A stretch of 64,000 bases of DNA from the NCBI RefSeq assembly GCF_023650955.1, contig NZ_CP098039.1, positions 2,294,001 to 2,358,000 of the forward strand, written 5' to 3'. Positions 15,215-22,084 of the stretch are shown piece after piece. Each line of letters opens with the position of its first letter. Position 1 is the stretch's first letter. Below the pieces are notes generated by a model. The model was not told the origin of the DNA. It did no database searches and saw nothing but the letters and a program-made list of their open reading frames with translations. This DNA comes from Thermosynechococcus sp. HN-54. Its GTDB lineage: Bacteria > Cyanobacteriota > Cyanobacteriia > Thermosynechococcales > Thermosynechococcaceae. Position numbers and translations under genes: made by a program.

Positions 15215-15957
15215 TTTCTAGCCCTGCCGTTGATTTACAAGATGTGACGGTCGCCTATCACCGTCACCTTGCTCTCCATGGAGCAACGTTGCAATTGCCC
15301 GCAGGCACCATCTGTGGGGTAGTGGGCATGAATGGGGCTGGCAAGTCAACCCTTTTCAAGGCGATCATGGGGTTTGTTAAACCCATTCGAGGTCAGGTGC
15401 GCATCCATGGCTTACCCCTCCGGCACGTGCAACGGCAGTCCCTTGTGGCCTATGTCCCCCAGAGCGAAGATGTGGACTGGCAGTTCCCTCTACGGGTCTG
15501 GGATGTCGTGATGATGGGGCGCTATGGCAAAATGAACTGGCTGCGCCAACCGAGAGCGGTCGATCGCCAGCGGGTACGGGAAAGTCTAGAGCAGGTGGAA
15601 CTATGGCCCTTGCGGTACCGCCAAATTGGTGAACTCTCAGGAGGCCAAAAGAAACGCATGTTCCTTGCCCGCGCCTTTGCCCAAGAAGCACAGGTGTTGC
15701 TCTTGGATGAACCCTTTGCGGGTGTGGATGTGAAAACGGAGAAACTGATTATTGATCTCCTCATGGCAGAGCGGGAGAAGGGGCACACGATTCTCATCTC
15801 CACCCACGATCTCTCCTCAATTACCACCTTTTGTGATCAGGTGGTGCTGGTGAACCGCAGTATCTTGGCCTATGGCCGCACCAGTGAGGTGTTTACCCCA
15901 GAAAATCTGGCGCGAGCCTTCGAGGGATCCCTGAGGATCCCCCGGCGCTGTGACTAG
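15211..15957 (+). CDS. mntA: Manganese ABC transporter, ATP-binding protein MntA
   Basis: The 248-residue ATPase of the Mn importer. Walker A is 'GMNGAGKST' (39-47), the signature is 'LSGGQ' (142-146) and Walker B is 'LLLDEP' (163-168), followed by the H-loop in 'STHDLSS'. The ATG overlaps the mntC stop (ATGA), so translation is coupled. In Synechocystis the order is mntC-mntA-mntB, but no permease follows here: the next gene is convergent and unrelated, and the two stop codons share CTAG. The membrane subunit must come from elsewhere. Confidence 0.9.
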
Positions 15958-17117
15958 CTGCGACGAATCGGCGTGCCACAGGGATAGGTGGCTACAGACG
16001 CTTCAGTGGGCAGGTCTTTCACCTTTTGCTGAAGTTGTGCTTGTAGGTAGAGCTGCTGGAGGCGTTCGACCATTTCGCCGCGGCGATCGTAGAGGCGTTT
16101 GAGAGGACGGGGTTGACAGCGACTCAGGCAGTAGGCAGTGAGGATGGGGAGGGCGATCGTGCTATCGGTGTAGCAGACCACCGTATCCCGCAACCCTTGG
16201 GGATCCACCTTGCCCCAACTGACGGCTTCACTGGGCACAGCGCCCGAGAGGCCACCTGTATCCGGACGCGCATCGGTAATCTGAATAAAGTAATCGTGTC
16301 CCCGTTCCTCTAGCCCCAAGACCTCATGGATTTGCGGCTGGGTTTGCAGCAGGAAGTTTTTCGGACTACCACCGCCAATAATTAACGCTGCACTCTTGCC
16401 CTTGCCCTCAGCCGCTTCACGGGCAAAGTAAGCAATGGCTGCGGTTTCATTGACATCAATGGCAGGGTCAATGACCAGTTTCGAGCCTTCGAGGGCGATC
16501 GCCGCCACATTCATACCAATGGAGCTATCACCGGGAGAGGAGGTGTAAATAGGCACACCACACTCATAGGCTGTGGCCAGCAAGCAGGAATGGGTTTGTC
16601 CCCGCTGCACTTCCAGTTCCCGCACATAGCGCCCTAAGTGGTAGTGAAACTCCGCTGTACCCATACGGCGCTGGAAAATTTCACTACGCAGCACTTGCCG
16701 CAAAAAGGCATCGGTTTCAAGGAGGACATCGTAGTCAAAGATAATGTCATAAATGCGGATTTTGCTTTCCTTGCGCAGTTGCACATCATCCACAAAAGGA
16801 TGCGCCGCATAGAGATCCATGCCGAGGGCATAGTGAATGTCGTGGTAGAGATTAGCCCCAGTACTGATGATGTAATCAATAAACCCAGCGCGCACCAAAG
16901 GCGCAAGGGCAGAGATCCCCAAACCCGTCGGCGTCATGGCGCCTGAGAGGCTCAGACCAACCGTCACTTCTGGCTGAAACACCCGTTGGCTCAACAGTTG
17001 GCAAATTTCCCGCAAGCGTGCTGAGTTATAGGCAGTGAAGTATTTATCAATGAGTTCTGTCAAACTGATATTTTCGGGAATGGGAGCAGGGGTAATGGGG
17101 GTAGCAAATGCAGACAT
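15954..17117 (-). CDS. Deoxyhypusine synthase-like protein
   Basis: A 387-residue member of the deoxyhypusine synthase superfamily, NAD-dependent enzymes that move the aminobutyl group of spermidine. Visible motifs are '[15 protein letters not shown]' near the NAD site, 'STGANLYHD', '[13 protein letters not shown]' and 'EAVSWGKV', whose K303 corresponds to the catalytic lysine of the eukaryotic enzyme. Bacteria lack eIF5A, so the true acceptor is probably another amine, as in homospermidine synthases. ATG 17117 is chosen for its GAGGAA ribosome binding site seven bases upstream; the frame also contains an ATG at 17144. The stop is shared with the convergent mntA. Confidence 0.87.
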
Positions 17118-17514
17118 CGGTCGTTCCTCGCAAGCTAATTCCACAGCAGGCGCAGCCGCTCAGGCGGGAACTACCCCAACCACAGCATTGCTTAACCCGC
17201 TGAGGGGTTTTCATGGTTTCTAATAGCTAAAAACTTGAAGTGCCGTAACAGTGCTCAACGTGATCAACACTTCTGATCGACCCAGTTCACAACGGTGTGA
17301 ACCTCCAGTTGCAGGCCGATCAGCTCATACTCGGTCCTTCGCAATGATCCACGACTGAGAGTGCAGGGATGGCTGCTCGCCGTTGGCGCAACCCCATTTC
17401 GAGATACCAAGGTGTGATGTTGGGATAGCCCATCAACGTCAATTGTTTCACTGTTGACAAGTCCCATACCCTTACATTACGAGATCACTATAACACTTCA
17501 TTACCCAATTTGCC
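17118..17514. other. Long non-coding stretch upstream of the deoxyhypusine-synthase-like gene
   Basis: About 400 bases without a convincing gene. On the minus strand, as leader of the downstream gene, two hairpins can form: CCGC-TCAG-GCGG at 17156-17167 and AACCC-GCTGAG-GGGTT at 17194-17209. The rest (about 17220-17480) shows only short open frames on both strands, none with known motifs. It could hold a leader RNA or a decayed gene. Confidence 0.4.
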
Positions 17515-17709: not shown

Positions 17710-19530
17710 TTAGGCCACAACCAGTTGGGGGGACTCTGGGTACAACGGTTGCAGTTGCAGGGGTACAGGCCTTGGTGAGGTCGGCAATAGCTCTGTGCGA
17801 AACTGGGGTGCGTTGCCCTGCCAAAACTCGGCCATAAAGGCAGTGGCGTTGTTGGTGACGACATTCACCACCGGATGCAGGCCGAAAAACATCCCACCAA
17901 AGGTGACAGCCAAGTTGGGTAGGGCAATTAAGGCCACATTTTGATAGGTTCGCTCTAGGGCATCGCGGGCAATGGCAATGCCACGGCCAAGGGCAGACCA
18001 ATCCCCATCCAACAGGATCACCACTTTGGCATTGGGAGCAAAGGTGGGGGGCTGCCAGCGAATCGGCAAGCACGTGGATTCAGGACAGGAGCACGTTTCA
18101 CCAAAACTCAGCCATCCGCCCCGTCGACCGTTGCTCCTGAGGTAGGTCTGAAGATCGGCGAGGCGATCGCTCGTGAGATCGGTGGTGCCCTCAAGGGGCA
18201 TGCCGTGATCCTGCAGAAGATAGGTATGAATGCCAAGCTGTCGCAATTGGTGAATTAGCAGTTGTGCCTCTTGGGGCTGGGGGAGACCCTGCCGCGCATC
18301 AATCACCAAGCAGTCCAGTTGCGCCAGTTGTTCTAGAGTACCTGCTGTGGGTAAATAGACCCCCTGTTGCACGGCAAATACCTGTGCTGAAAGCATCACC
18401 GTCCGTAGGGACAGTTGCACACCACTACCAAAGTCAAATTGCAACGGGGCGATCGCCGGCCCGTAGGCACCCGTAGCCAGCCAGAGGGCACCACTGAGGG
18501 CAAGGGTTGGCAGCACGGCATGGCGGGCAAATTCCCCCTGTTGGTGGGCAAGGGCACTGTCATAGACCGGTTCAGTGTGTAGCAGATCCGTAATCAGACC
18601 AAGGCGTGTTTGCCAACCGGTGCGCACCACCCGCAGCTGGAGTTGTCCCGTGAGAATTTGACAGCCGGCATAGAGAGCCTCGCCGGGACGACACACCCAC
18701 ACCTGTCGGGAAGCTTCAAAATGAGCAGGCTCAACTTCCGCTAACCCGGCAACAACGCAGCCATCCGCTGGCACAACATCCCCCGGTCGTAGCCACAGGA
18801 GATCACCGGCTTGCAACTCCTGACTTTCGATCATCAGCGACTGCCCTTGACGTTCCACTGTGAGCTGTTCATAGTGAGCCATCAAAACACTGGGATATAG
18901 ATGCAACTGTTGTCGTCGCTGGCGATCGCGCAGATCTGCCCGTGCCCCGACTAACGTGGTCTTCAATGCAGGCGCCAACAACTGACCATTGGCCGTGTGC
19001 ACAGCCATCCAGAGGCTATCGAGCAAATCCACATTGGGGGGATGCCCCTGACTGATTTGATGCCCTACCCGTTGAAACCACGGCCAAGCACTGGCCAAGA
19101 CTGTTGCCCCGACAACCACCAAGGGCAATTCCAAGGGCACACTCAGCAGTGAAACCCCCAAGGCCACCAAGGGCAGTCCCAAGCGTTCCCAATCGGTTTC
19201 AAGGCGAGCATCAGCCTCCACTTGTGCTTCGTAGTCTTCGAGGGCAATCGCATCCGCAGGAGCCGCACTGGCAGGAAGGGGCTGGGGCATGGCCACCATG
19301 GCCTGCTGAAAACAGTGATTCAAGCGTTCATAGACCGCTGCTTCATCAAGCGAATGGGGTTGATACTCCACCACCACGGTTGCCGCTTGGGGATTGAGCC
19401 GTACCCGCTCGACAATGGCCAAAGATTCTAGCAACTGCACCAATAACTCTCCGTAGGCGGGGTCCCGCTGCACACGCGGCACGCGAAAGCGCACTCGCCC
19501 TGTTGTGGCATGAACAATTTGCTGTTCCAT
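17710..19530 (-). CDS. Degenerate P-type (P1B-like) ATPase, catalytic motifs lost
   Basis: A 606-residue protein with the full plan of a heavy-metal P-type ATPase but no catalytic motifs. An HMA-2-like N-terminal domain ('VHATTGRVRFRVPRV') is followed by membrane segments, an actuator domain ('LWLRPGDVVPADG'), further membrane segments, a shortened P domain and a normal C-terminal membrane pair ('NVALIALPNLAVTFGGMFFG'). Where the TGE loop should be there is 'HFEASRQ' (about 270-276); where DKTGT should be there is 'DARQG' (D411); the CPC-type metal motif is absent ('LSLRTVMLS'); and GDGIND has become 'LDGDWSA'. The frame is uninterrupted, so it is a conserved non-catalytic protein rather than debris. 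ATG 19554 is an alternative start. Confidence 0.82.
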   Translation of the reverse strand: MEQQIVHATTGRVRFRVPRVQRDPAYGELLVQLLESLAIVERVRLNPQAATVVVEYQPHSLDEAAVYERLNHCFQQAMVAMPQPLPASAAPADAIALEDYEAQVEADARLETDWERLGLPLVALGVSLLSVPLELPLVVVGATVLASAWPWFQRVGHQISQGHPPNVDLLDSLWMAVHTANGQLLAPALKTTLVGARADLRDRQRRQQLHLYPSVLMAHYEQLTVERQGQSLMIESQELQAGDLLWLRPGDVVPADGCVVAGLAEVEPAHFEASRQVWVCRPGEALYAGCQILTGQLQLRVVRTGWQTRLGLITDLLHTEPVYDSALAHQQGEFARHAVLPTLALSGALWLATGAYGPAIAPLQFDFGSGVQLSLRTVMLSAQVFAVQQGVYLPTAGTLEQLAQLDCLVIDARQGLPQPQEAQLLIHQLRQLGIHTYLLQDHGMPLEGTTDLTSDRLADLQTYLRSNGRRGGWLSFGETCSCPESTCLPIRWQPPTFAPNAKVVILLDGDWSALGRGIAIARDALERTYQNVALIALPNLAVTFGGMFFGLHPVVNVVTNNATAFMAEFWQGNAPQFRTELLPTSPRPVPLQLQPLYPESPQLVVA

Positions 19531-19598: not shown

Positions 19599-20333
19599 AT
19601 GCTACCCAACCGTGAAGGGCAACGTGTTCCCGAAGTCACCTTTCGCACCCGTGAAGGCGATCAATGGGTCAATGTGACCACCAATGATTTGTTCAATGGC
19701 AAAACTATTGTCGTGTTTGCTTTGCCGGGTGCTTTCACCCCTACCTGTTCCTCGACCCATCTCCCCGGCTACAACGAATTGGCACCTCTGTTACGCGAAT
19801 GTGGCGTGGATGACATCCTCTGCATTTCCGTGAATGATGCCTTTGTCATGAATGAGTGGGGTAAAACCCAGCAGGCGGAGAAGGTGCGCCTCATTCCCGA
19901 TGGTAATGGTGAATTTACCGCCGGCATGGGCATGCTTGTCGATAAGGAAGACCTTGGTTTTGGCAAGCGCTCTTGGCGCTATTCAATGCTGGTGAAGGAT
20001 GGGATCATCGAAAAAATGTTCATTGAACCCGAAGAACCCGGCGACCCCTTCAAGGTCTCGGATGCGGAAACGATGCTCTGCTACCTCAACCCCCGCTACA
20101 AGCGGCAATGTGTGTCGCTCTTTACGAAGCGGGGCTGCCCCTACTGTGCCAAGGCAAAAACCCTGCTGGCGGAAAAGGGCATTCACTACGATGAGATTGT
20201 TGTCGGTGAGGGGGCTAGCCTGCGATCGCTCCAAGCGGTTACCGGGGCAACGACAGTTCCCCAAGTCTTTATTGACGGCAAATACATTGGCGGTTCCGAG
20301 GCACTGGCGGAATACTTGGCCACCCATTGTTAA
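19599..20333 (+). CDS. Peroxiredoxin-glutaredoxin fusion protein
   Basis: A 244-residue hybrid thiol peroxidase that reduces hydroperoxides using its own glutaredoxin domain and glutathione. Residues 1 to about 160 are a Prx5/type II peroxiredoxin with the peroxidatic cysteine C50 in '[12 protein letters not shown]'; residues about 168-244 are a glutaredoxin with the active site 'CPYC' (C180, C183) and '[14 protein letters not shown]' for glutathione binding. Similar fusions are known from Haemophilus and other bacteria. Divergent from the degenerate ATPase gene, 68 bases apart. Confidence 0.93.
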
Positions 20334-20410
20334 GTATCTTCGCTAAAGCAGCGGCAGGCAAGAATTTCACCCAAAAATGGAGTAATGAACTGCCTGCATC
20401 CCCGCCATCT

Positions 20411-22084
20411 ATGACAAAGCCACACTTTTGGACACGCTTTTTCCTGTGCCTGTTGTTCGCTTTTTTACTGGTAGGGGGGCAGGCACGGGTGCCCTCAATG
20501 GCTCAAACTGCTGCAACGCCACCACCGCCCCCTGAGATTCAGGAATACCCAGTCACCCTCGATGGCGAAGTTTTGTTTGAGGTGCGCCAAGGCATTGGCT
20601 CCTTTACCCCTGAGGAGCGGGCAGCAGCAATTCAACATCGTATCCTACAAGTGGCAGAGGATGAAGACATTCCCGTTGAGAGCATCACCATTAAACGTGT
20701 TGGCGATCGCGAGAATGTCAGTGTTGTGCAGGGGAACCGCCCGCTCGTCACCATTACAAGAGCGGATGTGGGCGATCGCTTGGAAAGTCAAGAAGAAGTC
20801 GCCGTTGAACTGACCCAGCGCATTCGCGCAGCAATCAGCCGTTATCGTCAAGATCGCGTGCCCCAAACTCTTCTCAAAAATACCATCTTGGCGATTTTAA
20901 CAACTGTTCTCACCCTGATTCTCTGTTCTGTTATTCTTCGCATCTCCGCCAAGGTTTTTCCCCCTGTGAGTCGCTGGGGTGGGGAGCGGATTCCCCCTTT
21001 ACGCCTGCAAAATTTTGAGATTATTTCTCAGGAAACAGTGGAGCATTGGCTATTGCGGATATTCCAGTTTACCCGCCTGATACTGCTGCTGTTTGTTCTC
21101 TATCTGTACCTAACGTTTGTTTTCAATCTCTTTCCTTGGACACGCACCTTTGGCAAGAATTTCCTCAACCACTTCTTGGGTTCCCTTGAATTTATTCTCA
21201 CGAGTATTGGCAACTATCTTCCCAATTTGGTGGCGATCGCCCTCATTAGCGCTATCACCTACTACATCCTAAAGGGGATGCGGGCTATTTTTAGCGCCAT
21301 TGAAAGTGAGCGCCTGCTGATTCCCGGCTTTTATACCGACTGGGCAAAACCGACCTACAACCTACTGCAAATTCTAATTATTGCTTTAGCGGCAGTCGTG
21401 GTTTTTCCCTACTTACCCGGCTTTGATTCACCGGCCTTTCGGGGCATTTCTGTGTTTTTGGGGATTCTCTTTTCCTTGGGTTCCACCTCGGCGATCGCCA
21501 ACGTCGTCGGTGGTGTCATTCTCATTTATACTCGTTCCTTTCAACAGGGGGATCTCATTCAAATTGGTGATGTTCAGGGAATCGTTGTTCAAAAAACCTT
21601 ACTGGTCACCCGCATCTGTCGTCCCAACAACCAAATCGTCACTATTCCCAACTCCTCACTCCTCAACAGCAATGTCACCAACCTGTCCGTTGCTATCCGC
21701 GAACTAGACCGCCCCTTAATTTTGCAAACCACGATTACCCTTGGCTATGATGTACCCTGGCGGGAGGTCTATGCCGCCATGATTGAAGCGGGTCGCCGCA
21801 CTGAGGGGGTTTTAGCGGAACCGTCTCCTTTTGTTTGGCAAACCGCACTGAACGATTTTCATATTAGCTATCAACTGAATGTCTATACCCGTGATTGGCC
21901 TCGCGTCCCTTGCATTATGTCGGAACTTCACGAAAACTTGCAGGATGCTTGTAACGAAGCAGGGATCGAAATCATGTCACCCAGTTACTTGGCCCTGCGG
22001 GATGGTAACACTAGTACCATTCCCAACAATTACCTAGGGGATGACTATTTCCCGCCGGGATTCCGCATTATCTTACCCAAATAG
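20411..22084 (+). CDS. MscS-family mechanosensitive channel with extended N-terminus
   Basis: A 557-residue membrane protein. A signal peptide (about 5-35) precedes an exported domain of about 130 residues ('EDIPVESITIKRVGDRENVSV'), then four or more membrane segments (about 160-180, 220-245, 265-300, 320-360), and the MscS pore and cytoplasmic domains (about 345-530; 'GSTSAIANVVGGVILIYTRSF', 'RPNNQIVTIPNSSLLNSNVTN'). The pore helix resembles that of small-conductance-type channels used against osmotic downshift. ATG 20411 is preferred over 20327, which overlaps the previous gene. Unlike the channel at 5914-7695, it has no nucleotide-binding domain. Confidence 0.87.
   Translation: MTKPHFWTRFFLCLLFAFLLVGGQARVPSMAQTAATPPPPPEIQEYPVTLDGEVLFEVRQGIGSFTPEERAAAIQHRILQVAEDEDIPVESITIKRVGDRENVSVVQGNRPLVTITRADVGDRLESQEEVAVELTQRIRAAISRYRQDRVPQTLLKNTILAILTTVLTLILCSVILRISAKVFPPVSRWGGERIPPLRLQNFEIISQETVEHWLLRIFQFTRLILLLFVLYLYLTFVFNLFPWTRTFGKNFLNHFLGSLEFILTSIGNYLPNLVAIALISAITYYILKGMRAIFSAIESERLLIPGFYTDWAKPTYNLLQILIIALAAVVVFPYLPGFDSPAFRGISVFLGILFSLGSTSAIANVVGGVILIYTRSFQQGDLIQIGDVQGIVVQKTLLVTRICRPNNQIVTIPNSSLLNSNVTNLSVAIRELDRPLILQTTITLGYDVPWREVYAAMIEAGRRTEGVLAEPSPFVWQTALNDFHISYQLNVYTRDWPRVPCIMSELHENLQDACNEAGIEIMSPSYLALRDGNTSTIPNNYLGDDYFPPGFRIILPK

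Follow-up and report, generated by a model that had tools for sequence, protein, structure and literature searches.

P1B ATPases such as CtaA, PacS and ZiaA (model TIGR01525) share with the protein analyzed here an eight-helix topology, the A-domain fold and the C-terminal segment, whereas the latter lacks TGE, DKTGT, TGD, GDGxND and the N domain. The cyanobacterial HMA_2/CoBaHMA P1B ATPases (the paralogues p1 and p2 of the same genome, and the A- and B-types) resemble it also in the N-terminal domain, in DxGxG at M4 in most of them and in the conserved Asn of the last helices, but have retained the N domain and every catalytic motif. Calcyanin, the ccyA product and a marker of intracellular amorphous CaCO3, has in common with it the HMA_2 domain, the genome distribution, the gene clusters of G404 and G389 and a 49-aa domain; on the other hand, calcyanin contains glycine-zipper repeats and lacks the membrane body of an ATPase, and the dead ATPase is not a calcyanin. 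Published carbonate formers include a "T." species. According to a 2021 review (PMC9292747), none of the transporters identified to date is specific to carbonate formers, and a 2025 paper found no equivalent ATPases in cyanobacteria (PMC11773610). No pseudoenzyme of the P-type ATPase superfamily was found described in the literature searched.

The gene lies in the window, the whole 64,000-nucleotide stretch of Thermosynechococcus sp. HN-54 DNA that was analyzed. The open frame of 606 residues claimed by the original prediction was confirmed as an uninterrupted 606-codon frame on the minus strand (17710-19530), and its start codon at 19530 (MEQQ) is the start common to the orthologues. The features of the gene, all on the minus strand, are as follows.

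17710..19530, minus strand: coding sequence of the 606-aa catalytically dead P1B-ATPase-like protein (P0001), from the frame, orthologues and dN/dS
19330..19521, minus strand: HMA_2 (CoBaHMA-type) N-terminal domain, residues 4-67 (Pfam PF19991, E 6.2e-8; segment dN/dS 0.07)
18904..19194, minus strand: predicted membrane helices 1-4, residues 113-209 (alignment, low-confidence model, 21 clade-invariant positions)
18580..18867, minus strand: actuator (A) domain with the catalytic loop lost, residues 222-317 (PF00122; 2hc8 match)
18709..18720, minus strand: FEAS replacing the TGES phosphatase loop, residues 271-274 (paralogue alignment)
18367..18570, minus strand: membrane helices after the A domain, residues 321-388, with the lowest dN/dS of the protein, 0.05 (alignment, dN/dS, low-confidence model)
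18421..18435, minus strand: DFGSG at the CPC/CPx position, residues 366-370, clade-invariant and resembling the DxGTG of the intact putative partner subtype (alignment)
18286..18300, minus strand: DARQG replacing DKTGT, residues 411-415 (paralogue alignment)
18022..18345, minus strand: P-domain remnant, residues 396-503, N domain deleted; relaxed, dN/dS 0.29, 2/108 positions invariant (alignment, dN/dS)
17815..18021, minus strand: P1B segment of the C-terminus including the final two helices, residues 504-572 (within the segment 41-42% identical to the intact paralogue; 20 invariant positions)
17848..17853, minus strand: Asn-Asn in the last helix, residues 560-561, unchanged across the clade and the putative partner subtype (alignment)

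Pfam assigned HMA_2 (PF19991) to residues 4-67, with 33.2 bits against a cut-off of 30, and E1-E2_ATPase to residues 222-358 (E 1.5e-19), and gave no match to the HAD hydrolase domain in the 606-aa protein. P1B ATPases are its best sequence and fold matches, and the homology spans the A domain, the helices and the C-terminal segment, indicating that the protein is P1B by descent; the P1B models score far under their cut-off (TIGR01525 of NCBIfam, 70.5 bits vs 346 needed). P1B ATPases also ranked first in the fold search, made with a low-confidence model from six sequences (pLDDT 51.5) that lends weak support only. A plasmid collection searched with the protein gave no match, and neither an RNA family nor a convincing promoter was found in the gene region.

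Alignment with the paralogues of the same genome revealed that TGES has become FEAS and DKTGT has become DARQG, and TGD and GDGIND were unrecognisable. Compared with the 770-774 aa paralogues, the protein has lost about 140 residues, which make up the N domain and the beginning of the P domain. Catalysis by the known P-type cycle is impossible for this protein. The original prediction of a P1B-ATPase anatomy without TGE, DKTGT and GDGIND was therefore correct according to both Pfam and the paralogue alignment, but the scaffold is not intact as had been proposed, since it lacks the N domain and half of the P domain. The supposed loss of a CPC motif was also mistaken in detail. The intact p1 and p2 carry DLGTG and DFGSG, respectively, at M4, and neither has CPC, indicating that its absence is ancestral and that the motif was never present in this lineage; CPC loss as a derived trait was thus ruled out.

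Orthologues were found in 9/10 other genomes of the genus, with 76-90% identity, which excludes chance. The copy of G006, a metagenome-assembled genome (MAG) with about 2.7x coverage, is split by a frameshift, and G009 is without the gene. At the DKTGT position the congeners have DARAG or DGRAG/DGRSG, so the shared loss of the motif that the original prediction proposed to look for in orthologues was found across the genus, and a recent loss in one strain was rejected. Wider searches yielded further members in G287, G408, G404, G389, G554 and G494, and full-length intermediates carrying DRTGT and GDGINE in G539, G501 and G511 (L069-L071). In a maximum-likelihood tree the 10 pseudo-ATPase and 3 intermediate sequences, from several genera, form one clade with 100/100 support, surrounded by intact HMA_2/CoBaHMA P1B ATPases; its nearest neighbour is the intact A-type, a placement with weak support. 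A conserved branch of P-type ATPases without catalytic motifs would be a clear case of a pseudoenzyme in this superfamily.

Judging from these sequences, the catalytic loss is old and not a recent decay. The full-length DRTGT/GDGINE forms may represent a halfway stage, and the N domain appears to have been lost once or twice inside the clade. The catalytic sites would have been lost in the clade ancestor, probably by point changes first and deletion of the N domain after, and the protein would have been retained for its membrane part and N-terminal domain. Microcystis-like genomes (G106, G245, G364 and G584; L147, L148, L150 and L151) encode HMA_2 P1B-like proteins that lack A and N domains and are about 500 aa long, and G595 (L098) a comparable short protein of 319 aa. 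The forms of about 500 aa fall outside the clade, pointing to a second, separate catalytic loss. Methylococcus-like homologues (L042, L043, L045) were rejected as clade members because they keep DKTGT.

The HMA_2 domain also heads a protein of 322-329 aa in Thermosynechococcus. In this genome it has 325 aa (L081:2286-3263) and combines HMA_2 with three glycine-zipper-like repeats, read by eye, an architecture by which we take it to be calcyanin. The calcyanin-like gene was found in 11/386 genomes of a phylum sample, and 6/6 genomes with the dead ATPase are among those 11, at a threshold (E 1e-95) which forms without the A domain, such as that of G494, would escape. Overall, 17/18 genomes with a clade protein also have the calcyanin-like gene; the exception is G554, in which no convincing calcyanin was found. 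By genus, all three with the dead ATPase are calcyanin-positive (3/3 vs 5/142 genera; p 2e-5), and in the order of the window's organism the same four of 11 genera carry both genes (4/4 vs 4/11; p 0.003), values which take no account of kinship and overstate independence, because the genomes are related and clusters may travel together. In the order of G389 both genes occur in G389, G501, G511 and G539. Clade proteins thus occur almost only together with the calcyanin-like gene, an association that the original prediction did not contain. The clade is absent from two calcyanin-positive groups, the Gloeomargarita-like G095/G249 and the Microcystis-like genomes, indicating that the dead ATPase is not universal to the trait and probably not required for it.

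The paralogue p1 (771 aa, G000:C1:261.5-263.8 kb) belongs to the B-type by the tree. The B-type (at least 62% identity to p1) was present in 14 of the 80 genomes tested: 13 are calcyanin-positive and the 14th is G554. It was absent from all calcyanin-negative controls among those 80. In three lineages (G554, G539/G501 and G494) a dead or intermediate ATPase adjoins an intact ATPase of the B-type and shares its strand, with one 137-aa gene between the two in G539/G501. Calcyanin, an ArsA-like ATPase and the dead ATPase have the same order in G404 and G389. The G404 contig that holds them also carries a calcium/proton exchanger (TIGR00378, 352 bits vs cut-off 211), 3 bases after the B-type gene, and in G389 the dead ATPase has a Na/Ca-exchanger-family gene as its neighbour. 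A domain of 49 aa that has no Pfam name, xLAKRLxxxxxAxxxxRxxxxFxxWSxxxDPxxxAWxYxPxSKxF (loci L079, L162, L183, L077, L076, L138, L090), was found in the calcyanins of G404 and G389, in the dead or intermediate ATPases of G404 and G539 and in the B-type ATPases of G404, G539, G501, G554 and G448; no other carrier was found in 2.4 Mb of DNA, a biased set. The ATPase clusters repeatedly contain a small DUF5132-like protein (L077:8931-9242, L184:3874-4251, L184:4465-4851, L076:4361-4753, L079:11427-11771).

Losses within the genus are also shared. Neither the dead ATPase nor p1 was found across the whole G009 genome, in which calcyanin is reduced to a 68-residue remnant (L192:10844-11047) still beside its usual neighbour, and p2 to an 82-residue remnant (L198:1397-1618) between its usual neighbours. 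G009, with its calcyanin remnant, is thus without all three pumps: the dead ATPase, p1 and an intact p2. The G006 copies of calcyanin and the dead ATPase each carry a frameshift, and sequencing error is possible at the coverage of that MAG.

Our favoured explanation, to which we give slightly better than an even chance, is that the dead ATPase is a non-pumping membrane partner of the intact CoBaHMA B-type ATPase (p1 in this genome) in a calcyanin-linked carbonate system. It would act as a regulator, assembly subunit or ion-binding subunit of the B-type pump, and the system would load alkaline-earth ions, calcium or others, for the amorphous carbonate formed inside the cell. A sensor, a partner or a scaffold had been put forward for this protein in the original prediction; a non-pumping role is supported, and the idea of a partner of an active ATPase is directly supported by the three lineages in which the gene adjoins an intact P1B one. 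With DxGxG and Asn-Asn positions and no cysteines, the pump may carry a hard cation, for instance calcium, and the neighbouring calcium exchanger fits this putative ion. We propose more tentatively, and with some doubt, that calcyanin, one CoBaHMA P1B subtype, the Ca/H exchanger and the dead ATPase constitute a dedicated ion-loading complex for intracellular carbonate; this would be the first P-type ATPase system tied to cyanobacterial carbonate formation, and one with a pseudoenzyme subunit. The intact P1B subtype and its dead relative, which track the calcyanin-like gene, are candidates for the route of Ca, Sr and Ba into this carbonate.

The substitution pattern bears on what the protein is retained for. 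Among nine orthologues (36 pairs, NG86) the median dN/dS was 0.12, with a range of 0.08-0.20, compared with 0.056 for p1 and 0.10 for p2. Within the protein, dN/dS was 0.07 for HMA_2, 0.05 for the helices after the A domain and 0.07 for the C-terminal helices, rising to 0.29 in the P remnant and 0.56 in the tail. Ten clade members share 74 invariant positions, of which 58 are in the membrane, 12 in HMA_2 and 2/108 in the P remnant; G494 has no A domain, and hence no invariants are possible in the A segment. Purifying selection therefore holds the membrane body and the HMA_2 domain of a dead ATPase, in the same range as in an intact paralogue, bearing out the original claim that the protein is maintained by selection.

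The polar membrane residues D366, N539, N560 and N561 are invariant even though catalysis is gone, and dN/dS is lowest in the membrane helices. Both observations would also suit a membrane protein that senses ions or passively conducts cations, in which the DFGSG and Asn-Asn helices bind a divalent cation, HMA_2 reports or anchors and no pump partner is needed, as would the position of the gene in Thermosynechococcus, where it stands alone in its neighbourhood, beside neither the B-type ATPase nor calcyanin. We consider this explanation unlikely, since a partner is suggested both by the three lineages in which an intact P1B ATPase is adjacent and by the loss of the gene together with p1 in G009. 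It seems improbable that the protein is a scaffold which shapes lipid or membrane for the carbonate compartment, with HMA_2 (CoBaHMA) binding anionic lipid or calcyanin. Lipid binding is an idea reportedly put forward for this domain in the CoBaHMA paper, and a scaffold would account for the strong conservation of H7, G11, R12 and R14 in HMA_2, for the presence of that domain at the head of calcyanin and for the second domain, of 49 aa, common to calcyanin, pseudo-ATPases and B-type ATPases; the invariant polar residues along the ion path, however, are not needed by a scaffold.

A pseudogene, or slow decay without function, could be argued from the missing catalytic motifs, the faster evolution of the P remnant and tail, and the frameshifted copy in one MAG and absence from one genome, but is very improbable and was rejected, as all 36 pairs lie at dN/dS 0.08-0.20, the frames are open in nine genomes and the same losses extend across an ancient clade. 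In line with this, neither orthologues with an intact DKTGT nor a dN/dS near 1, by which the original prediction would have had to give way to a pseudogene, were observed.

Other genes near the dead ATPase were recognized by eye. Two genes away, at 20327-22084 of the window, is an MscS-like mechanosensitive channel; the neighbourhood around this channel and the dead ATPase is not conserved in G008 or G287. For carbonate formers, mechanosensitive channels are among the candidates proposed for the entry of calcium (PMC9292747). A peroxiredoxin-glutaredoxin fusion gene (19599-20333) is divergent from the dead ATPase, and a deoxyhypusine-synthase-like gene, unusual in bacteria, lies on the minus strand at 15954-17144.
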